From positions 126,119 through 190,118 of the forward strand of contig CAJOFJ010000005.1 in the NCBI GenBank assembly GCA_905233625.1: a stretch of 64,000 bases of DNA, given 5' to 3'. Position numbers and translations under genes: made by a program. Origin of the DNA: an uncultured Bacteroidales bacterium (GTDB taxonomy: Bacteria > Bacteroidota > Bacteroidia > Bacteroidales > WCHB1-69). Below are positions 39,517-54,578 of this stretch, one piece after another (position 1 is the first letter of the stretch; each line of letters starts with the position of its first letter). A model generated the notes under the pieces. The model ran no database searches, had not been told where the DNA came from, and saw only the letters and a program-made list of their open reading frames with translations.

Positions 39517-42500
39517 ATGAGTAAACCTGACTATCTATTCGAAACCAGCTGGGAGATTTGCAACAAAGTCGGCGGTATTTACACCGTCCTCTCCACCAAG
39601 GCGTTCACCGCTGTCAACCATTTCCAAAACAACTATATCTGCATCGGTCCAGACCTGTCGAAAGAAGACGAGAAACGGCAGGAGTTCATAGAAGACCCCA
39701 CCCTTTTCAAGAACTGGCGGGCCAATGCTTTGTCGGAAGGCCTTCGTATCCGCATTGGCCGGTGGAATGTCAGCGGACACCCCGTGGTCATACTGGTGGA
39801 CTTCACCCCTTATTTTGAGAAGAAAAATGATATTCTGACCCAATTTTGGCTCAGCCATAAACTGGATTCCATTTCCGGTCAGTGGGACTATATCGAGCCC
39901 GCCCTCTTCGGCTATGCTGCCGGCAGGGTTATCGAGAGTTTCTACCAGTTCTACTGCACCTCCATGGACAAAATCGTGGCACAGTTCCACGAATGGATGA
40001 CAGGCACTGGCATCCTGTACCTGAACCAGAAAGCCCCGCAGGTAGCCACCGTGTTCACTACCCACGCCACCGTGTTGGGCCGTTGCATCGCTGGCAACGG
40101 ACTACCCCTATATGGCAACATCAAGCAGTATCAGCCCCAAGATACCGCCAAACGTTTCGGCGTACAATCCAAGTTCTCGCTGGAATACCTGTCCGCACAG
40201 ACTGCCGACGCCTTTACAACCGTAAGTGACATCACCGATATTGAATGCGAGGCATTCCTGGGCAAGAAAGTCGATACGGTCACCATCAATGGTTTTGAAA
40301 ACAATTTTGTGCCGCAAGGCGAAGACTACCAGCGTTTGCGTACAGCAGCCCGCCAGAAACTGATCCAAGTGGCCACGGCTCTCACCCAGCAAAGCATCAG
40401 CGACGATGCCCTGCTGATCATCAACAGCGGTCGTTACGAATTCCACAACAAGGGTATCGACATGTTTATCAAGGGTTTGGCCAAGCTGAACCAAAACAAG
40501 GATCTGCAACGCGAGGTGGTGGCCTTCATCGCTGTGCCCGCAGGTACCAGCGGCAAACGCACCGACCTGATGCTGAAGATGAACCAGCCTGTCGGCGACA
40601 AGCCTGTCCTTGACGACTTCACCACACATCCCCTCTACGACAGCTACAACGACCCCGTTGTCAAAAATTTAATTGCCAATAATTTACACAATGCCCCAGA
40701 CCAAAAGGTAAAAGTCATTTTCATCCCCGTTTACCTGAATGGTGAAGACGGCATCTTCGACCTGACCTATTACGAATTACTGCCGGGTATCGATCTATCA
40801 GTATTTCCATCTTATTATGAACCATGGGGTTACACCCCGTTGGAGAGTGTCGCTTTCGGCATTCCCACCATCACCACCACCAATGCCGGTTTCGGCCAAT
40901 GGGCAGTAGCCAACTTCCAAAACCAAAAAGCCGTGACCGTCATTACACGTACTGACAACAACGATGAGGAAGTGGCAGAAGGCATTGCCCAATCCATCTT
41001 ATACCATACAGTTTGCAGTGCGGAAGAGACCGTAAAGAACCGTGACAAAGCCACTGAAATCTCGCAACAGGCTTTATGGAAAAATCTGTATAACAACTAC
41101 TTGGACTGCTATACCATTGCCTTGTCAAAGAGTTTTAACCGTTCAGACCTGTATCGGAACAAGACTTCAAGAGTAGGCTTGTTGGTAGAGAAGTTCCAGA
41201 AACCGGAACCCGTATGGCACCGTATTTCCGTCAAATCAAAACTGCCGGAACCGCTGATGAAACTGGAGAAACTGTCCAAGAACCTCTGGTGGAGCTGGAA
41301 CTACGAAGCCCGCGAACTGTTTGAAGAAGTGGCAGGCAAGGAGCGTTGGCAGCAATACGAGGAGAACCCCGTTTATCTGCTGCAGGAATTACCTGCCAGC
41401 TGCATCGACAAACTGATGGAAGACACGCTGTTTCTGGAAAAAATGGACCATGTATATGCCCAGTTTGAGCAATATATGAACGAGCCGCGCACCCGCACAG
41501 AAGAGCAGGTGGCCTATTTCAGCATGGAATTCGGCATCAGCAACGAGCTGAAAATTTTCTCCGGCGGTTTAGGCATGCTGGCTGGCGACTACCTCAAAGA
41601 AGCCAGCGACTGCAACGTCAACATGGTAGGCATCGGTCTGCTGTACCGCTACGGCTATTTCACCCAGCAGATTTCCGCCATCGGCGACCAAATCAACCTC
41701 TATCCGCCGCAGAGCTTCTCCAAGTTGCCCATCCATCCGTACAAAGATGCCGAGGGCAAATGGATCACCATCAGTCTGGCTTTGCCGGGTCGCAACCTGT
41801 ACGCCCGTATCTGGCGAGTGGATGTAGGACGCATCCCCTTGTTCCTCCTGGACACCGACTTTAACGACAATACCGAGGAAGACCGCAGAACCACCAATAC
41901 CCTTTACGGCGGTGACATCGAAAATCGTCTCAAACAGGAAATCCTGCTGGGTATCGGAGGTATGAGGATGTTGGAGAAACTGGACATCCATCCCACCCTG
42001 TTCCATCTGAACGAAGGGCACGCCGCCTTCCTGAATCTGGAAAGACTGCGCTGGTTCATGCAGGAAAAACAACTTCCCTTCGGCCAGGCTATCGAGCTGG
42101 TACGCAGCTCATCCCTGTTCACCACGCACACCCCTGTGCCCGCCGGACACGACACCTTCAGCGAGGATTTGATGCGCCGCTATTTCTCCTATTACACCGA
42201 AAAATGCAACATGGAATGGGCCACCTTCATGAGCATGGGCCGCAAAAACATCGACGATATCTACAGCAAATTCTCGATGAGCATTCTGGCCTGCAAACTG
42301 TCGCAGGAAGTCAACGGCGTAAGTGCCATCCACGGCCGTGTCAGCCGCGAGATGTTCAGCTTCCTCTACGAGGGGCATCTGCCGGAAGAGCTCCATATCG
42401 GGCATGTCACCAATGGTGTGCATTACCCGTCATGGACCCACAAGAAATGGCAGCAATTCCATCAGGAAGTCTTTGGCGATAAATTCCTCCGCAATCAGTC

Positions 42501-43743
42501 CGACGACAGTTTCTGGAAAAAAATCTATGATGTGGAAGATGCCGACATCTGGGCCATCAAGGACCAATTGAGAGGCGAGCTGATTGACAATATCAAGACA
42601 CTGCTGGAGGTACAGATGCGCCGCCGCAACGAGTCACCCGACCTCATTGTCAACACCTTAAAGGCTATCCGCAAGGACGCGCTGACCATCGGTTTCGCCC
42701 GTCGTTTCGCCACATACAAACGCGCGCACCTGCTCTTCACCAACGAGGAGAAGCTGAAGCGTTTGCTCAACAACCCCGATCAGCCCGTGCAATTCGTCTT
42801 CGCCGGCAAGGCACACCCACACGACAAGGCTGGACAGGACCTCATCAAACGTATCCTGGAATTCTCACGCAAGCCCGATTTCATCGGAAAAATCATCATA
42901 TTGGAGAATTATGACATCATCCTGGCCAAGAAGCTGATTTCGGGCTGCGATGTATGGCTGAATACCCCGACCCGTCCCTTGGAGGCATCGGGAACCAGCG
43001 GCGAGAAGGCCGTGATGAACGGTGTGCTCAACTTCAGCGTACTTGACGGCTGGTGGGCAGAAGGCTACCATGAAGGAGCTGGCTGGGCCATCAACGAACA
43101 GATTACCTATACCGACAACCGCCTGCAGGACGAGTTGGATGCCGCCACTATCTACGCCATGATTGAAGAGCAAATCGCCCCCTGCTTCTACAACCGTGAT
43201 GAAAAGAATATTCCGCATGAATGGACCAAGATGATGAAGAACTGCTTCTACAAAACCTCGCCTCATTTCACCATGAAGCGCCAGCTGGACGACTATTATG
43301 AGAAGTTCTATCACAAATTGGAGAAACAGCATAAATTATTGTCAGAAAACAATTTAGAGAACACTTTCAATCTCGTTCGCTGGAAAGAGAAAGTCCTCAC
43401 CGCATGGGATAGTGTGGAAGTCGTTGAACTCACCCAATCTGAGCCGACAGAAATCACTTTCACCTTGGGAGACCAGATTACCACCACCGTACTGCTCAAA
43501 TTAGGAGCCCTGCGCGTGGAGGATCTCAAAGTGGAATTGGTATTTACCAAAATTGACAATGGCAAGCGAGTATTCTACCGGAAAATACCTTTCACCCTGG
43601 TGGACACTCAAAACGACCTGGCACGCTTCAGCTGTACCGTCCAACCCAAGTATGCCGGCATGACGGACTATTCCGTCCGTATCATCCCCGCCAACCCCAT
43701 GTTGCCGCATGATATGGATTTCAACCTTGTAAAATGGCTATAA
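39517..43743 (+). CDS. Glycogen synthase / alpha-glucan phosphorylase fusion
   Basis: Bifunctional cytoplasmic protein of 1408 residues. Residues 1-560 are a GT3-like glycogen synthase (YLFETSWEICNKVGGIYTVL, FPSYYEPWGYTPLESVAFG). A DUF3417 segment follows at about 570-680 (LPEPLMKLEKLSKNLWWSWN). Residues 680-1400 are a GT35 alpha-glucan phosphorylase (VAYFSMEFGISNELKIFSGG, LFHLNEGHAAFLNLERL) with the PLP-lysine block EASGTSGEKAVMNGVLN near 1156. One chain thus holds an elongating and a degrading enzyme for the same polymer, an arrangement known in Bacteroidetes. No other glycogen gene is nearby. Strong upstream promoter. Confidence 0.9.
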   Translation: MSKPDYLFETSWEICNKVGGIYTVLSTKAFTAVNHFQNNYICIGPDLSKEDEKRQEFIEDPTLFKNWRANALSEGLRIRIGRWNVSGHPVVILVDFTPYFEKKNDILTQFWLSHKLDSISGQWDYIEPALFGYAAGRVIESFYQFYCTSMDKIVAQFHEWMTGTGILYLNQKAPQVATVFTTHATVLGRCIAGNGLPLYGNIKQYQPQDTAKRFGVQSKFSLEYLSAQTADAFTTVSDITDIECEAFLGKKVDTVTINGFENNFVPQGEDYQRLRTAARQKLIQVATALTQQSISDDALLIINSGRYEFHNKGIDMFIKGLAKLNQNKDLQREVVAFIAVPAGTSGKRTDLMLKMNQPVGDKPVLDDFTTHPLYDSYNDPVVKNLIANNLHNAPDQKVKVIFIPVYLNGEDGIFDLTYYELLPGIDLSVFPSYYEPWGYTPLESVAFGIPTITTTNAGFGQWAVANFQNQKAVTVITRTDNNDEEVAEGIAQSILYHTVCSAEETVKNRDKATEISQQALWKNLYNNYLDCYTIALSKSFNRSDLYRNKTSRVGLLVEKFQKPEPVWHRISVKSKLPEPLMKLEKLSKNLWWSWNYEARELFEEVAGKERWQQYEENPVYLLQELPASCIDKLMEDTLFLEKMDHVYAQFEQYMNEPRTRTEEQVAYFSMEFGISNELKIFSGGLGMLAGDYLKEASDCNVNMVGIGLLYRYGYFTQQISAIGDQINLYPPQSFSKLPIHPYKDAEGKWITISLALPGRNLYARIWRVDVGRIPLFLLDTDFNDNTEEDRRTTNTLYGGDIENRLKQEILLGIGGMRMLEKLDIHPTLFHLNEGHAAFLNLERLRWFMQEKQLPFGQAIELVRSSSLFTTHTPVPAGHDTFSEDLMRRYFSYYTEKCNMEWATFMSMGRKNIDDIYSKFSMSILACKLSQEVNGVSAIHGRVSREMFSFLYEGHLPEELHIGHVTNGVHYPSWTHKKWQQFHQEVFGDKFLRNQSDDSFWKKIYDVEDADIWAIKDQLRGELIDNIKTLLEVQMRRRNESPDLIVNTLKAIRKDALTIGFARRFATYKRAHLLFTNEEKLKRLLNNPDQPVQFVFAGKAHPHDKAGQDLIKRILEFSRKPDFIGKIIILENYDIILAKKLISGCDVWLNTPTRPLEASGTSGEKAVMNGVLNFSVLDGWWAEGYHEGAGWAINEQITYTDNRLQDELDAATIYAMIEEQIAPCFYNRDEKNIPHEWTKMMKNCFYKTSPHFTMKRQLDDYYEKFYHKLEKQHKLLSENNLENTFNLVRWKEKVLTAWDSVEVVELTQSEPTEITFTLGDQITTTVLLKLGALRVEDLKVELVFTKIDNGKRVFYRKIPFTLVDTQNDLARFSCTVQPKYAGMTDYSVRIIPANPMLPHDMDFNLVKWL

Positions 43744-44463: not shown

Positions 44464-45367
44464 GCTATGCGGGGATTGTGGCTACGCCACAATCTAATTT
44501 ATTATTCGATGCAGAAAGTGCGTATGCGGGGGTTGTGGCTATGCCACAAATTTGTTCTTCCGGCCATATCGCAATTGCTGCAATACATTATGCGGCAAAG
44601 CCGCAACCCAAACATAGATAACGATGGTTCTCGGAATATTACGGCGTGCCGTAGGTACGCGACCATTATTCAATCGGATAGAAAATATATTTTTCGTCAA
44701 ATTCAACCCCTTCACGAACCAACAATTGTTTATATTCATCAACAAATTTTTTATTGGCATGATGTTTTTCCTGATTTCTGATATAATTTGCAATAACATC
44801 AATATCTTTGGGACCACAGGAAAATGCACCATATCCCGACTGCCAGCCAAATCTGCGCACGGATAATTTGTTTTCATTAATCCACCGTGAACTATCCCCT
44901 TTGACTAAACGCATTAAATCCGATAATGGTATTGTTGTGTTGTGCATGCTAAGCAAAATATGCAAATGATCCGGTATTCCACCTATAGCTATCACATTAT
45001 TTCCCTTATTAGAAATTATCGTGGAAATGTAAGAATATAATTTATCCTTCCATAGGTTAGATATTAATGAATCTCTGTTTTTTACAGTAAATACTGTATG
45101 AATGTAAATGCGAGCAAAGGTGTTGGGTGTTGTTTTTTTCTCATTCATAGCTTATATTTTTTATTAATATTAAATTTATAACGATATATTATACAAATTA
45201 TTATTTAATAAACAAAAAAATCACAATATTACTGGGATTGTCCCTCTGGGACAAATTTGGCTGGTGCGATATATCACGCTATGCGGGGATTGTGGCTACG
45301 CCACAATCTAATTTATTATTCGATGCAGAAAGTGCGTATGCGAGGGTTGTGGCTACGCCACAGATTT
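44464..45367. mobile_element. RAYT transposase gene between 90-bp direct repeats of paired REPs
   Basis: A nearly identical 90-bp segment occurs at 44464-44553 and 45278-45367. Each copy has two hairpins of the GATTGTGGC-tac-GCCACAATC type, preceded by TATGCGGGG and separated by CTAATTTATTATTCGATGCAG. The transposase gene (minus strand) lies between them. This matches the REPtron or BIME arrangement known for RAYT genes, though here the flanks are long near-perfect repeats. Confidence 0.75.
44666..45148 (-). CDS. REP-associated tyrosine transposase (RAYT, Y1 family)
   Basis: Single-strand DNA transposase of the IS200/REP-associated Y1 family, 160 residues. The HUH metal motif is GGIPDHLHILLSM near residue 62, and the catalytic tyrosine is probably in DVIANYIRNQEKHH near residue 126. 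RFGWQSGYGAFSCGPKD lies between, as in IS200 TnpA. RYAT-type proteins recognise and process REP hairpins. The gene is intact, from ATG 45148 to the stop at 44666, and is flanked by its presumed REP substrates. It could instead be a minimal IS200 copy, but the repeats argue for RAYT. Confidence 0.85.
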   Translation of the reverse strand: MNEKKTTPNTFARIYIHTVFTVKNRDSLISNLWKDKLYSYISTIISNKGNNVIAIGGIPDHLHILLSMHNTTIPLSDLMRLVKGDSSRWINENKLSVRRFGWQSGYGAFSCGPKDIDVIANYIRNQEKHHANKKFVDEYKQLLVREGVEFDEKYIFYPIE

Positions 45368-45390
45368 ATTCGGCATTCAATGAGGAAGGA

Positions 45391-45440
45391 GTGGTATGCG
45401 GAGGGGGTGGTATACGGAGGATGTGGCTATGCCACATTAA
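45391..45440. repeat. Additional degenerate REP copies
   Basis: TATGCGGAGGGGGTGG, then TACGGAGGATGTGGC-tat-GCCACAT: two more, diverged copies of the REP unit next to the right flank. Confidence 0.6.
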
Positions 45441-45449
45441 TATTTTCCG

Positions 45450-45457
45450 TATTTTTG
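45450..45457 (+). promoter_or_regulatory. -7 box (TATTTTTG) for the radical SAM gene
   Basis: TAnnTTTG about 100 bp upstream of the ATG at 45556. Confidence 0.55.
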
Positions 45458-45485
45458 CAGGCAGATAACGCTGTTGATTTGGAGA

Positions 45486-45535
45486 TGTTTCAAGGAACAT
45501 ATTTGGAGGCGTTTCAGGAAACGTCTCTACAACAT
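45486..45535. repeat. Small palindromes in the radical SAM leader
   Basis: TGTTTC-aa-GGAACA and CGTTTC-ag-GAAACG lie in the leader between the -7 box and the start codon, separated by ATATTTGGAGG. They may be REP-like DNA or leader hairpins. Confidence 0.45.
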
Positions 45536-45555
45536 CGAACATTTGTCAGAAAAAA

Positions 45556-46497
45556 ATGTCAGACCGCTACTATTCATACAAACAATTCTTACTGGAGCAT
45601 TTCGGGGAACCGGTGCTGAAGTTGCCCGTGGATGCGGGGTTCAGCTGTCCCAACCGTGACGGCACCGTGGGGACGGGGGGCTGCAGCTACTGCCTCAACG
45701 AGGCCTTTGCGCCACGCTACTGTTCCTCCGGAAAAGACATTCTGCGGCAAATCGACGAAGGCATCGAATTTCACCGTCAACGAGGCCGTGAGAGCAATAT
45801 CTACTTGGCTTATTTCCAATCCTTCTCCAACACCCACGCACCCCTTGACAAACTGCGGGAGCGCTATGAGACTGCCCTATCGCATCCGAAGGTAAAAGGA
45901 CTGGTTATCGGAACCCGTCCCGACTGCGTTGATGAGGAAAAACTGGACTACCTGAAAAGCCTGAGCCAAAAGCATTTTATCAGTGTGGAATATGGTATCG
46001 AAAGCTGTTATGACCGCACTTTGCAACGCATCAACCGAGGACATGATTTCGCCACCGCACAACAGGCAGTAGAGCAAACCGCCTCAAGAGGCATCCATAC
46101 CGGCGGACATTTCATTATCGGACTGCCCGGAGAAACGACAGCAGACTGGTTGTCAAGTATTCAGACTATCAACCAGATGCCTCTCAACAGCCTCAAATTC
46201 CACCAATTGCAAATCATCAAAGGCACCGCGATGGAAAAGGAATTCGAAGAGCATCCCGAAGATTTCCAGCATCTGGACATGGATACCTATATTGAGCTGA
46301 TGGTGGAGATGATAAAACGGATGCGACCGGACATCAGCATCGAACGCTTTGCGGCAGAGGTACCTCCCCGATACCTAAGAAGCAATCCCTGGCAACTGCA
46401 ACGCTATGACGTGATTCTGCAAAAAATACGCCAACGATTAATGGAGAAGGACTGTTGGCAAGGAATGAGCCTAAACATACCGGAACCGACCTTATAG
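45556..46497 (+). CDS. YhcC-type radical SAM protein (TIGR01212 family)
   Basis: Cytoplasmic radical SAM enzyme. The cluster motif of this family is spaced unusually: FSCPNRDGTVGTGGCSYCLNE near residue 30. Next come YLAYFQSFSNTHAPL, IGTRPDCVDEEKLDYL and VEYGIESCYDRTLQRINRGH, then the GGHFIIGLPGET strand, all standard for YhcC. 313 residues, normal. The reaction and substrate are not established for the family. No functional partner is adjacent. Confidence 0.9.
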   Translation: MSDRYYSYKQFLLEHFGEPVLKLPVDAGFSCPNRDGTVGTGGCSYCLNEAFAPRYCSSGKDILRQIDEGIEFHRQRGRESNIYLAYFQSFSNTHAPLDKLRERYETALSHPKVKGLVIGTRPDCVDEEKLDYLKSLSQKHFISVEYGIESCYDRTLQRINRGHDFATAQQAVEQTASRGIHTGGHFIIGLPGETTADWLSSIQTINQMPLNSLKFHQLQIIKGTAMEKEFEEHPEDFQHLDMDTYIELMVEMIKRMRPDISIERFAAEVPPRYLRSNPWQLQRYDVILQKIRQRLMEKDCWQGMSLNIPEPTL

Positions 46498-49641: not shown

Positions 49642-49709
49642 AAAGGAGACGCAAACGGAGCATCTATACAAATTTTTTATTCATCTTTATGCAATTCGAG
49701 AATTTTGTA

Positions 49710-49717
49710 TAAATTTG
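49710..49717 (+). promoter_or_regulatory. -7 box (TAAATTTG) for the Kelch/AraC gene
   Basis: TAnnTTTG 25 bp upstream of the ATG at 49743. Confidence 0.65.
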
Positions 49718-49742: not shown

Positions 49743-51437
49743 ATGGTATTATTAATACTCTTTCTAATAGCCTCAATCCCCCTGTTGGCGGAACCGCCGG
49801 CAGGAGATACGCTTTTGAGGCAGGAGGTGCTGAAAGCGGAACGTTTAGCAGACATGCACATAGCTCGTGCCGGCCATACTGTTTTCTACGCTGGCGGAGA
49901 ATTGACAGTAGTGGGCGGACACACCACAGGCTTTGTGCTCACTCCCACCGCCGAATACTATAGCGGCGGCAAGTGGCATCAAATTTCCACCGTTTATCCC
50001 CACGACAACGGCCTATCGGTAGTACTCGATGATGGCCAGCGGGTGCTTTTGGCTGGAGGACACGAAAAGAACCTGGGCATAGGCCAGCGATACGAGGCGG
50101 AAATGTACAACACCGTATCGCATACCTTTGAAGGCTTCGGCTGCACGGACCGCAACAGGGCTTTCGCCCAAGGCGTGGAACTGGACAACGGACAGGTACT
50201 CATCAGCGGCAACCACAAAGGCAACGATGGCTTCGAAATGTTTGATGGAAAGAAAAACTTCAGACACATAAAAGACGTATGCACTTGGCGCAGCGCACCC
50301 TACGTGCTGCCTATCGCCGAGGACAACGCCATCGTGTTCGGTAGCGTCTGGAGGAACCAGCGTTTCGAACCCTGCGACACCGTTGAACGACTGAAAGGCG
50401 AGCCTTTCTGTATTCCTTTACTGAAAGAATGGATGCCCTTGCTATTCTGTCAATACAGTCATGCGCAAGCGGCCTTCATCGGCAACAAAGCCAAAGGTGA
50501 TTACACCTACCTTATAGCCGCCATGAATCTTGATGGCGAAATGGCCTTTATCCATATTCACGACACGGTCTTTTCGCTATTGCCCACATCATGCCCCATT
50601 CCGACAACGACAAAGTGGGGACAAATAAAATATCAAAGCACCTCTGTTGCCGACACCCAAGCCCACCGCACATATTTAGTGGGCACTGATACTACAGGAA
50701 GAGTCTATGTGGTAGCTGTAGAATATGACCAAATTCCGGCTCCCGTCACGCTATATTATACTACCCTCCTGACCGAGTTCGGCAACACCACACCCATACT
50801 GACTCCTGACGGCGACCTCATCGTCACCGGAGGCATCACCAATGACAACTTCTCGCCTTTTGCCTCAGTGTGGTTGCTGCATACAGGCCAGAACAACACA
50901 ACGGCAAGCACCGCTACACTTTCAAAACACCTCTTGTGGTGGCTACTTGGCGGACTACTGATTGCAATTTTTGCAGTCGTGTCTCTTCGAATCCGCAAGG
51001 GCAAAAAAGACACGCTGCCACTTTCCGAAGAAGCCGAAAAGCTCAAAAAAACGGAAAACACAGAATCAGAGGAAAATCTACCAGCCGACAACAGCTGCAA
51101 AGAACTGATGGAACGCATTATCCGACTCATGGAGGCCGAACACCCTTATCTGAACCCCAAGCTAAAGCTGAGCGATATTGCCGATACTCTCGGAGTGCAT
51201 CGTAACACAGTATCGGCCTGCATCAACTCTCAGCAAGGTTGCACTTTCAGCCAGTTTATCAACGACTACCGTTTAAGGCACGCCCAAAAGTTGTTACTCG
51301 AGACCACCGATATGAAAATGTATACCGTGGGCATGGAGTCGGGCTTTGCCAACGAGCGTTCGTTTTTCCGTTCGTTCAAAGCCGCCACAGGGCTGACACC
51401 CAAAGAGTGGAAAGACCAACAGCGCAAGAAGCTCTAA
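49743..51437 (+). CDS. Membrane-spanning AraC-type regulator with a periplasmic Kelch-like sensor
   Basis: Predicted one-component transmembrane transcription factor of 564 residues. Order: signal sequence (LLILFLIASIPLLA, 1-16); periplasmic part about 20-390 with Kelch-like strands (AGGELTVVGGH, DDGQRVLLAGGH, LDNGQVLISGN, TPDGDLIVTGG) suggesting a beta-propeller; one transmembrane helix at 397-414 (LLWWLLGGLLIAIFAVVSL); Glu/Lys-rich linker; and an AraC DNA-binding domain at 454-560 (LKLSDIADTLGVHRNTVSACI, MESGFANERSFFRSFKAATG). It would sense an extracytoplasmic signal and bind DNA from the membrane. The next operon encodes three exported proteins and is a plausible target. It ends in a strong terminator. 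Confidence 0.8.
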   Translation: MVLLILFLIASIPLLAEPPAGDTLLRQEVLKAERLADMHIARAGHTVFYAGGELTVVGGHTTGFVLTPTAEYYSGGKWHQISTVYPHDNGLSVVLDDGQRVLLAGGHEKNLGIGQRYEAEMYNTVSHTFEGFGCTDRNRAFAQGVELDNGQVLISGNHKGNDGFEMFDGKKNFRHIKDVCTWRSAPYVLPIAEDNAIVFGSVWRNQRFEPCDTVERLKGEPFCIPLLKEWMPLLFCQYSHAQAAFIGNKAKGDYTYLIAAMNLDGEMAFIHIHDTVFSLLPTSCPIPTTTKWGQIKYQSTSVADTQAHRTYLVGTDTTGRVYVVAVEYDQIPAPVTLYYTTLLTEFGNTTPILTPDGDLIVTGGITNDNFSPFASVWLLHTGQNNTTASTATLSKHLLWWLLGGLLIAIFAVVSLRIRKGKKDTLPLSEEAEKLKKTENTESEENLPADNSCKELMERIIRLMEAEHPYLNPKLKLSDIADTLGVHRNTVSACINSQQGCTFSQFINDYRLRHAQKLLLETTDMKMYTVGMESGFANERSFFRSFKAATGLTPKEWKDQQRKKL

Positions 51438-51464
51438 TATCCAAAGACGGATAAAATACCCATA

Positions 51465-51500
51465 ACGACTGACATTTTACAAAATGTCAGTCGTTTCTTG
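51465..51500 (+). terminator. Terminator of the Kelch/AraC gene
   Basis: A 14-bp perfect stem, ACGACTGACATTTT / AAAATGTCAGTCGT, is followed by TTCTTGTTT. It separates the regulator gene from the following promoter. Confidence 0.75.
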
Positions 51501-51532
51501 TTTACCACAGAATCCGTAGTATTGTTTTTCGC

Positions 51533-51540
51533 TAACTTTG
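51533..51540 (+). promoter_or_regulatory. -7 box (TAACTTTG) for the FSMP/beta-helix/T9SS operon
   Basis: TAnnTTTG 37 bp upstream of the ATG at 51578. Confidence 0.7.
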
Positions 51541-51577
51541 CATATTAAATAATTTTACACCTTTAAAACAAACAACT

Positions 51578-52378
51578 ATGAAGAAAATCCTTTCAATCTT
51601 GATGATTTCCCTGCTGGCAGGAGCAATGCTATTAACCGCCTGCAAGAAAGACGAAACCAATAATAATAATTCAGAGACACCTGGTGGAGGCACAGAGACA
51701 CAACCCACAGGCACCATCGAGAACAACGTGGTGACGGATATCGACGGCAACGTCTATAATGGTGTATGGTTGAATGGCAAGCTGTGGATGAAGGAGAACC
51801 TGCGCACCACAAGATATGCCGACGGCAGCGCCATTCCTGTAGCCGCCTCGGTTGAAACAACAAGTCCGACAGAACCCTACCGCTATGCGCCCAACAACGA
51901 CGAAAGCAATGTGTCTTCATACGGATGGTTATACAATTGGCCGGCTACAGTGCATGGAGCAAGCAGTGGTGTGGTACAGGGTGCCTGCCCCAACGGCTGG
52001 CATGTGCCTAGTACTGGCGAATGGGAGGATATGACCGAACATTTGATCCAACAAGAAGAATACTTGTGCAATGGTGGTCTTGCACAAGCAATGTGCAACA
52101 CTTGGGCTTGGGAACCCATGGACTTCCCGCATGCCTGTCTGCCTGGTACAGACTTAATGTCCAATAATGCCACCGGCTTCTCCGCCCTTCCCGCTGGTGC
52201 TGTCACCGATAATCCCAACATGCTTCCTTTAGGTTATAATGCCATGTTTTGGTGCTCTACTAGCGGTGGTGGGGAAGTTGCTTGGTCGCGCAGCATAGGT
52301 TACACCTATTGGCATATCGGCTCTTCCGCCGGTGATTATAAAGGCAACGGCTACTCTGTGCGCTGCGTCCGCAATTAA
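51578..52378 (+). CDS. FSMP-domain lipoprotein
   Basis: Surface-type lipoprotein of 266 residues. The signal (LMISLLAGAMLLTACKKDE) has a lipobox, then an Asn/Thr/Gly-rich linker, then an FSMP domain (TIGR02145 type): VTDIDGNVYNGVWLNGKLWM, LRTTRYADGSAIP, CPNGWHVPSTGEWEDM, NATGFSALPAGAV and the terminal GYSVRCVRN. The domain resembles formylglycine-enzyme/C-type-lectin folds and is commonly surface-exposed; ligands are unknown. It is the first gene of a three-gene operon behind its own promoter. Confidence 0.85.
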   Translation: MKKILSILMISLLAGAMLLTACKKDETNNNNSETPGGGTETQPTGTIENNVVTDIDGNVYNGVWLNGKLWMKENLRTTRYADGSAIPVAASVETTSPTEPYRYAPNNDESNVSSYGWLYNWPATVHGASSGVVQGACPNGWHVPSTGEWEDMTEHLIQQEEYLCNGGLAQAMCNTWAWEPMDFPHACLPGTDLMSNNATGFSALPAGAVTDNPNMLPLGYNAMFWCSTSGGGEVAWSRSIGYTYWHIGSSAGDYKGNGYSVRCVRN

Positions 52379-52439
52379 TCAAATTATCAACATTCAATAA
52401 CAGTAAACAACAACAGTATTAATTCAAATATCACGTATC

Positions 52440-53468
52440 ATGAAAAAACTTTTCGCAGTAATGATTGCATTGTGTTGCTTCGCATGGGCACAAGCACAAA
52501 CTCCTATCGCCATGCTGATCCACGACAGCAATATAACCCCCTACTATGGCAGCAACGCCCTGATTGACGCATATAACGATGCACAAAACGGCGATATCAT
52601 CAACCTCTCACCCGGTGTCTTCAACAACGTTGAAGTCAGAAAGTCACTCACCATCCGTGGTGCAGGCATGATGACCGACACCACAGCTGGTACTCTTCCC
52701 ACCATCATCAGCGGCAGCAAAAAAATCCATAACCCCGACACCGGTCTAACCATGACTTTTGAAGGTCTTTATTTTGAGGATGAACTCTATATGGATGGTA
52801 TTTATCATACCTACTTCAACAAATGCTATATCAATAGGTTCACATCCCCATTTTATGGCGGTGGAGATATTCATGGTGGCACTTTCACCCATTGCATCAT
52901 CCGTGAAATCAGGGGCAACTGGCTTACAAACTGCCATTTCTTCAACAGTGTGGTTCGTGATATCATGTCAGGAAATGGCATTGATTTTGGAGGCAGCGAT
53001 GGCACATCCGTATTCGACCACTGTGTCATCCAGTTGAGAAGATGTGAAGGAATAGACAAAATCCACTCCACCAACAGTATTTTATTGCTTGAAAATCCTA
53101 ACGACACCATCAGTATTGCCGCCACCTGTGATAATCATCAGTACTGCATCGGCATCATGAGCTGGCATGACGGATTTTTTGTTCCGTCTTCGTATGCAAG
53201 CGGCCACAATCTGCACAATTATGTTTGGACCTATCAAGTATTTGAGGGTTTCGACCGCGATGTTACTGTCTTTGCCAACTACCATCTTGCCAGCAATAGT
53301 GGAGCCGATTTATTGTTAGGCAACGACAACTCCCAAATCGGCATCTATGGTGGCAACATGCCTTTCAACCCATGCATAGCCAATCCAGGTGTAGGTCGTA
53401 TCACCGTGGGCGGACAGACCAACCAACAGGGACAGCTTCCCATCAATATCCAATTCATCAACCAGTAA
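52440..53468 (+). CDS. Exported parallel beta-helix protein
   Basis: Exported protein of 342 residues with signal MKKLFAVMIALCCFAWAQAQ. The mature part is built of short repeated strands (GDIINLSPGVFNNVEVRKSL, GGTFTHCIIREIRGNWLTNC, FFNSVVRDIMSGNGIDFGG), typical of right-handed beta-helix proteins of the pectate-lyase/NosD type. It has no lipobox and no C-terminal sorting domain, and no catalytic residues can be assigned. It lies 61 bp after the FSMP gene and 12 bp before the sorting-domain gene, so the three are probably one operon. Confidence 0.75.
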   Translation: MKKLFAVMIALCCFAWAQAQTPIAMLIHDSNITPYYGSNALIDAYNDAQNGDIINLSPGVFNNVEVRKSLTIRGAGMMTDTTAGTLPTIISGSKKIHNPDTGLTMTFEGLYFEDELYMDGIYHTYFNKCYINRFTSPFYGGGDIHGGTFTHCIIREIRGNWLTNCHFFNSVVRDIMSGNGIDFGGSDGTSVFDHCVIQLRRCEGIDKIHSTNSILLLENPNDTISIAATCDNHQYCIGIMSWHDGFFVPSSYASGHNLHNYVWTYQVFEGFDRDVTVFANYHLASNSGADLLLGNDNSQIGIYGGNMPFNPCIANPGVGRITVGGQTNQQGQLPINIQFINQ

Positions 53469-53480
53469 ATCCAATCCGTT

Positions 53481-54578
53481 ATGAAACGATTGCTATTTTT
53501 CATTAGCGGATGGCTGCTCTGCGGAGCCTTGTCGGCCCAAAATATCACCCAATATGAGTATTGGTACGACTATGACTATGCCAGCCGACAGAGTTTCACT
53601 CTTGTTGACGGCAATACACTGATTGACGCCTCCATGCTGAAAGCCGGTCCACATGTTCTCTCCCTGTTCTGCCAGATTGACTCCTACACCCGCGTACAGC
53701 AATTTCTGTTTTACCATCATCCGAATCTTGCCACAACAGGAGGTTCTTGTCTCTATTGGTTTGACAACGACGTAAGCACTTCCACCAATATACCCCTGGC
53801 CAACGGTTCCTTTCTGGTGGATGCCTCTATGCTGAGCCCCGGATTACATCAATTTAACTTAACCTATAGCATACATTTTGAACTCCACTTGGAAAGTTTC
53901 ATGTTTTACAAGATGCCTGAAACCCCGATAGCCACTGCCCTCACCTTCCACTACCGTGTGGATGGCGGCGAGTTCCAGACTGAAACAGTCACCGCCCAGG
54001 GCGCAATGGTTCCCCTCAATCTCGACATGAACGACTTAACGGAAGGCACCCACACCATCGAGCATTACATCACCAACGGCAACAATGACGTGCTCTCGCC
54101 CTTACAGTCCGACCAGTTTGTGCGCACCCACATCACCCAGTACTACACACTGACCTTGCTGGTCAACGATGAAAACATGGGGTACACGGTGGGTGGCGGG
54201 GTTCACGCCGATGATGAGCTGGTATCTTTTGAAGCCACCCCATACAATGGTTTTATCTTCGACCACTGGAACGACAACGTGACCACCAACCCTCGTGAGA
54301 TTATGCTCACCTGCGACACCACCTTCACCGCCTACTTCGAAATTGAGGATGGAGTAGAGGACTATACCACGGGAAAAATTCTAGTATATAGCCACCATGG
54401 CAATATCATTGCCAACTTCGACACCCCCATGCCTGTATGGGTTTACGACATGAGTGGCAAACTGTTGGTTAGCCGCCCCGCAGATGGCTCAACCAGTTTC
54501 TCTATTCCCATGTCCACTGGCGTTTATTTGGTAAAAGCAGGCGATGTCTATGTTAAAAAAGTTGTAATAACGGAATAA
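53481..54578 (+). CDS. Exported protein with a type IX secretion sorting domain
   Basis: Exported protein of 365 residues. Signal LLFFISGWLLCGALSAQ. The N-terminal half has two similar modules (QYEYWYDYDYASRQSF...LIDASMLKAGPHVL and SCLYWFDNDVSTSTN...LVDASMLSPGLHQF). A middle beta domain (YTLTLLVNDENMGYTVGGG, FEATPYNGFIFDHWND) resembles bacterial repeat domains. The C-terminal 75 residues (ILVYSHHGNIIAN, VWVYDMSGKLLV, TGVYLVKAGDVYVKKVVI) form a type-A T9SS sorting domain. It should therefore be exported to the cell surface by the T9SS. Last gene of the operon. Confidence 0.82.
   Translation: MKRLLFFISGWLLCGALSAQNITQYEYWYDYDYASRQSFTLVDGNTLIDASMLKAGPHVLSLFCQIDSYTRVQQFLFYHHPNLATTGGSCLYWFDNDVSTSTNIPLANGSFLVDASMLSPGLHQFNLTYSIHFELHLESFMFYKMPETPIATALTFHYRVDGGEFQTETVTAQGAMVPLNLDMNDLTEGTHTIEHYITNGNNDVLSPLQSDQFVRTHITQYYTLTLLVNDENMGYTVGGGVHADDELVSFEATPYNGFIFDHWNDNVTTNPREIMLTCDTTFTAYFEIEDGVEDYTTGKILVYSHHGNIIANFDTPMPVWVYDMSGKLLVSRPADGSTSFSIPMSTGVYLVKAGDVYVKKVVITE

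Follow-up and report, generated by a model that had tools for sequence, protein, structure and literature searches.

A predicted Kelch-type membrane AraC regulator with a phased palindrome beside exchangeable exported genes in Bacteroidales

A 64,000-nucleotide stretch of an uncultured Bacteroidales genome (contig CAJOFJ010000005.1, positions 126,119 to 190,118; hereafter the window) encodes a 564-amino-acid AraC-type membrane protein (49743-51437, + strand) followed by genes for three exported proteins. We consider it probable that this protein is a dedicated inner-membrane one-component regulator that has its own operator, activates the adjacent promoter and controls an exported cargo that can be exchanged. 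The features that carry this reading can be read from the sequences themselves: the protein architecture, the synteny, the conservation of a palindrome, its fixed spacing to a promoter and the lineage-specific cargo. The regulator would span the inner membrane and bind a ligand through an outward-facing, periplasmic Kelch propeller, and a single helix would relay the signal to the AraC domain in the cytoplasm, with neither kinase nor phosphotransfer involved. This domain, probably dimeric, would bind the CGACTGACA palindrome, which has 39 bp between the end of its right arm and the promoter -7 box downstream, and would activate transcription of the exported FISUMP/beta-helix/type IX secretion system (T9SS) operon. 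Over evolution, regulator and operator would remain together while the cargo behind the promoter is swapped. We infer ligand binding, DNA contact, dimerisation and activation over repression, and with them control of the exported set by a surface or periplasmic ligand, as a first-pass annotation of this DNA had proposed.

The regulator begins with a hydrophobic N-terminus (residues 1-19) that resembles a signal peptide, followed by a sensor predicted as a Kelch propeller (about residues 30-385), a single internal transmembrane (TM) helix (397-415) and an HTH_18 domain at 479-558 (E=5.6e-19, 68.7 bits against a Pfam cut-off of 33.6). It carries the HTH_18/HTH_AraC DNA-binding domain that characterizes the AraC/XylS family, and with an export signal at the N-terminus, one TM helix and the AraC domain at the C-terminus it has the layout of a one-piece TM-AraC protein. 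Pfam searches of the regulator returned no histidine kinase domain at E up to 0.1 and no receiver (CheY-like) domain. The Kelch_6 match of the window protein scores 25.2 bits, 0.1 bit below the Pfam cut-off of 25.3, and the orthologue in locus L097 exceeds the cut-off for Kelch_1. A sensor profile built from five orthologues finds Kelch propellers in the PDB, both designed ones (SAKe6, E=4e-6) and that of KEAP1 (E=3e-4), and about seven hydrophobic-GG motif peaks, spaced about 50 amino acids apart, are visible by eye. AlphaFold models a TM helix at 395-419 and the helix-turn-helix domain, the latter with a per-residue confidence score (pLDDT) of about 90. Domain matches, TM prediction and PDB profile matches agree on the one-piece Kelch-TM-AraC architecture that the first-pass annotation had read from the protein.

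Eight loci retain the downstream side of the regulator and make up the neighbourhood set: the window, L034, L035, L033, L032, L068, L097 and L069. In every one of them the gene after the regulator lies on the same strand and encodes an exported protein, with signal peptides judged by eye. L034, L035 and L033 share the order regulator, beta-helix protein, T9SS protein on one strand, and the flanking genes differ among L034, L035 and the window. L032 has as its cargo a lipoprotein that matches BACON weakly, L068 and L097 an exported protein of 1346-1350 amino acids and L069 an LRR_5 protein; of the two large proteins, that of L068 was scanned and shows PPC and DUF7619 domains. In the window, a FISUMP gene precedes the beta-helix/T9SS pair, and among the orthologous loci it is intact only here. 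The earlier proposal of a private link between regulator and exported operon is backed by this synteny across different flanks and by a phased palindrome. The expected exported character of the set holds throughout, and its beta-helix/T9SS members recur in L033-L035; the fixed FISUMP/beta-helix/T9SS composition does not hold, as other exported families take its place in L032, L068, L097 and L069. Among the diverged orthologues the sensor is 48-52% identical and the cargo comes from different families, and in the most diverged members the sensor is conserved as well as or better than the DNA-binding domain beside unrelated cargo. This pattern is easier to reconcile with a shared ligand than with a sensor that reads the cargo.

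A terminator-like hairpin (51464-51495) between the regulator and the operon contains the palindrome CGACTGACA-N10-TGTCAGTCG (51466-51493), a predicted operator that probably also serves as the regulator's terminator. It is followed by the -7 box of the exported operon, TAACTTTG (51533-51540, + strand), which is of Bacteroidota type. A sigma-70 promoter scan gave no enrichment over shuffles, and we therefore adopted the -7 motif TAnnTTTG of the Bacteroidota promoter consensus (PMC7366714). No clear -33 element was seen at the exported-operon promoter. A scan with the same motif places the predicted -7 box of the regulator itself, TAAATTTG, at 49709-49716 (+ strand), with an uncertainty of about one base.

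A palindrome of 27-28 bp is present in all eight loci. In L032 one base of the right arm is altered, L068 and L097 carry AGACTAACA-N10-TGTTAGTCT, and L069 carries CGACTGCCA-N9-TGGCAGTCG, which is one base shorter and precedes a -7 box, TATTTTCG, with one mismatch to TAnnTTTG. The left edge of the palindrome lies 67 bp from the -7 box in the window, L035, L033, L032, L068 and L097, 68 bp in L034 and 66 bp in L069. The spacer from the right arm to the -7 box is 39 bp (40 bp in L034), and this value is kept in L069 despite the shorter palindrome. The sole control for this constancy is the variation of neighbouring distances within the same loci, which amount to 4-53 bp from stop codon to palindrome and 39-138 bp from -7 box to start codon. 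Most pairs of spacer sequences are near shuffled identity, and the arm CGACTGACA is retained in loci with a diverged spacer. Phasing is superfluous for a terminator and needed for an activator site, so the fixed spacing points to an operator. The first-pass annotation had called the hairpin a terminator; its terminator-like form and T-run bear this out, but the constant distance to the -7 box speaks against a mere terminator, and the palindrome is most likely also, or mainly, an operator. With up to 2 mismatches allowed, it occurs just once in the genome, which rules out a repeated extragenic element and suggests that the regulon may be this one operon. Genome G016 has a second beta-helix/T9SS copy (L073) that stands apart from the regulator, and this copy lacks the CGACTGACA motif.

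Several observations weigh against the proposed activator and its operator. The main caveat is that the loci share ancestry, so that their equal spacings are partly dependent, and several spacer pairs do retain significant similarity. Many AraC proteins bind direct repeats, and a degenerate direct copy of the half-site (51446-51456, + strand) precedes the left half-site of the palindrome by 21 bp, a spacing familiar for AraC sites. This copy is found at 21 bp in the window, L034, L035 and L032 and at about 30 bp in L033, but it is absent from the L068/L069 group, on which ground a direct repeat was rejected as the core site. On the protein side, profile matches are what suggests a closed Kelch propeller, and an AlphaFold model of the whole regulator from a 3-sequence alignment gave the sensor a pLDDT below 50. 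Finally, a T-run follows the palindrome in several loci, so that it could be a terminator only.

In that last case the palindrome would be the regulator's intrinsic terminator, the regulator would act elsewhere and the downstream operon would be an unregulated neighbour. The 14-pair stem and the T-rich sequence after it fit this explanation, as does the co-variation of the palindrome arms between lineages, which a stem also requires. We nevertheless regard it as improbable, if worth keeping in mind: the distance to the -7 box is constant within 1 bp in eight loci while the adjacent distances vary, the arm CGACTGACA is kept where the spacer has diverged, and the regulator and exported gene stay adjacent although their flanks have changed.

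The same components could also work with the opposite sign, the regulator occupying the palindrome until a ligand releases it. A conserved promoter-adjacent site would fit repression as well as activation. Here no part of the site reaches into the promoter core: it stands upstream at a constant distance, beside a promoter with no clear -33 element. This arrangement seems more typical of activation, and repression appears unlikely. Kelch domains commonly bind proteins, and the regulator and an exported gene are always adjacent, so the sensor might recognize the exported cargo itself, for example when it builds up in the periplasm because export is blocked, and thereby exert feedback control. 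We find this distinctly unlikely, as a sensor that remains 48-52% identical would have to recognize cargo of different families.

Sensor-profile or full-length searches identified orthologues of the regulator in eight further genomes; identity falls to as little as 40-43%, and the set extends to another family. Three belong to the same family (G059, G016 and G060, the locus of the last being cut by a contig end), two are on public Bacteroidales metagenome-assembled genome contigs (L032 and L033), and G213, G312 and G495 come from the other family. A sample of 395 genomes from across the class yielded no further full-length regulator, and three distant matches (L070-L072) have Kelch domains with no AraC match obtained. 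By these searches the Kelch-AraC regulator is rare. The first ~40 residues of the G016 regulator (L035 6970-8676; MKIKSF...EDWESG) are unlike those of the other regulators and recall the N-terminus of a T9SS-type exported protein encoded nearby (L035 9416-12508). It looks as if recombination had replaced the 5' end and signal peptide of this regulator.

The regulator resembles the hybrid two-component systems (HTCS) of Bacteroides, in which one polypeptide senses in the periplasm, passes through the membrane and ends in an AraC domain, and which adjoin the genes they control (PMC3404733, PMC3878776). It shares the one-polypeptide layout, the C-terminal AraC domain and the position beside predicted target genes, but no histidine kinase or receiver domain was detected in it, its sensor is of Kelch rather than COG3292 type, and it stands beside exported surface proteins instead of SusC/SusD loci. 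In ToxR/CadC-like regulators, a single membrane protein both receives the input and binds DNA, with no phosphotransfer step (PMC5430869). The proposed scheme is likewise one-piece and free of phosphotransfer, whereas the DNA-binding domain of our regulator is C-terminal and of AraC type. ToxR/CadC-like proteins have the reverse domain order, with DNA binding at the N-terminus and the periplasmic domain at the C-terminus, and a different DNA-binding fold. Periplasmic sensing and activation of a neighbouring exported system are known from SusR-like regulators (PMC3878776), and both are proposed here, though with a compact palindrome as the predicted site and AraC/HTH_18 as the DNA-binding domain. 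By analogy, the regulator may work like an HTCS minus the phosphorelay and in one piece like ToxR/CadC, with the defining domains of neither. A closer structural parallel is encoded in a related genome of the same bacterial family (L024). Compared by protein architecture, this protein also has a signal peptide, an N-terminal repeat domain, a single TM helix and a C-terminal HTH_18 domain, but its repeats are tetratricopeptide repeats (TPR) in place of a Kelch propeller. The existence of this TPR-TM-AraC protein indicates that the one-piece TM-AraC kind is not rare.

The regulator and the three genes of the exported operon are all open reading frames on the + strand at the positions first annotated. 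The second gene of the four (51578-52378, + strand) encodes a 266-amino-acid FISUMP lipoprotein (PF09603, E=8e-32, 111 bits against a cut-off of 33.9; TIGR02145, 93.9 against 41.65). FISUMP is much expanded in the window genome (G000), which has at least 40 PF09603 matches, 36 of them strong among the matches listed, and several sit in open reading frames of more than 1000 amino acids with repeated domains. Because of these dozens of matches, FISUMP was not counted as a specific partner in the evidence for the link. The leaders of L034 and L035 hold VRCVRN* and LSVVCVRD*, which resemble the FISUMP end YSVRCVRN*. These short matches are apparent scars of a deletion that spared the 3' end of FISUMP, and they partly reinstate it as an apparent older member of the operon.

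The third gene (52440-53468, + strand) encodes an exported protein of 342 amino acids with a beta-helix-like N-terminal part. No Pfam family matched it; its profile matches the alginate lyase BcAlyPL6 (E=7e-4), and AlphaFold is confident for an N-terminal part only. The fourth gene (53481-54578, + strand) encodes a 365-amino-acid protein with N-terminal YWFD repeats and a Flg_new_2 domain whose score falls slightly short of the Pfam threshold. Its T9SS type A tail scores 26.5 bits in TIGR04183, for which the cut-off is 23. The window genome also encodes SprA (2503 bits), so that both the sorting tail and a genomic T9SS mark this protein as T9SS cargo.

Genes three and four belong to a wider unit. 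Searched with the beta-helix profile, 393 genomes of the order yielded relatives in 22, which represent 18 genera. A profile of the N-terminal YWFD repeats of the fourth gene served as the test for the partner. In the fetched loci, all 27 beta-helix genes that lie away from contig ends have a protein that matches it downstream on the same strand, either as the next gene or beyond tandem copies. As judged from these loci, the beta-helix/T9SS pair is an order-wide unit, mostly without the Kelch regulator. Across the pair loci (window 52440-54578; L033-L035, L073-L092), the partner is mostly of T9SS type and tandem beta-helix copies are frequent. Besides the Kelch regulator, the pair adjoins another kind of membrane AraC protein: in another family, multi-TM AraC regulators are divergent neighbours of the beta-helix gene in L081 (6477-7670) and L093 (6050-7174). 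We know of no function for the pair.

Elsewhere in the window, a single 1408-amino-acid open reading frame (39517-43743) fuses glycogen synthase and a glycogen phosphorylase-like part (Glycogen_syn, DUF3417, Phosphorylase). A 160-amino-acid open reading frame on the minus strand (44666-45148) resembles an IS200/REP-type transposase by eye, and repeated coding-like words, also seen by eye, lie beside it at 45257-45619.

Kinase-free membrane-bound AraC regulators recur in these genomes, and a literature search, with most subscription journals outside its reach, found no description of a Kelch-type member. Comparison of the loci predicts operator, promoter and regulated genes at single-base resolution, and one reporter construct would be enough to test the mechanism. 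The beta-helix/T9SS pair is a second unit of interest, linked in every testable case across the order. We tentatively suggest, at somewhat less than even odds, that Kelch-TM-AraC regulator and phased palindromic operator form a portable sense-and-display cassette that evolves as a unit while the exported surface proteins behind it change; a single conserved signal would then drive different surface outputs in different Bacteroidales. If the cargo is indeed exchanged while the sensor is conserved, this would be a clear example of how surface display can be rewired module by module.
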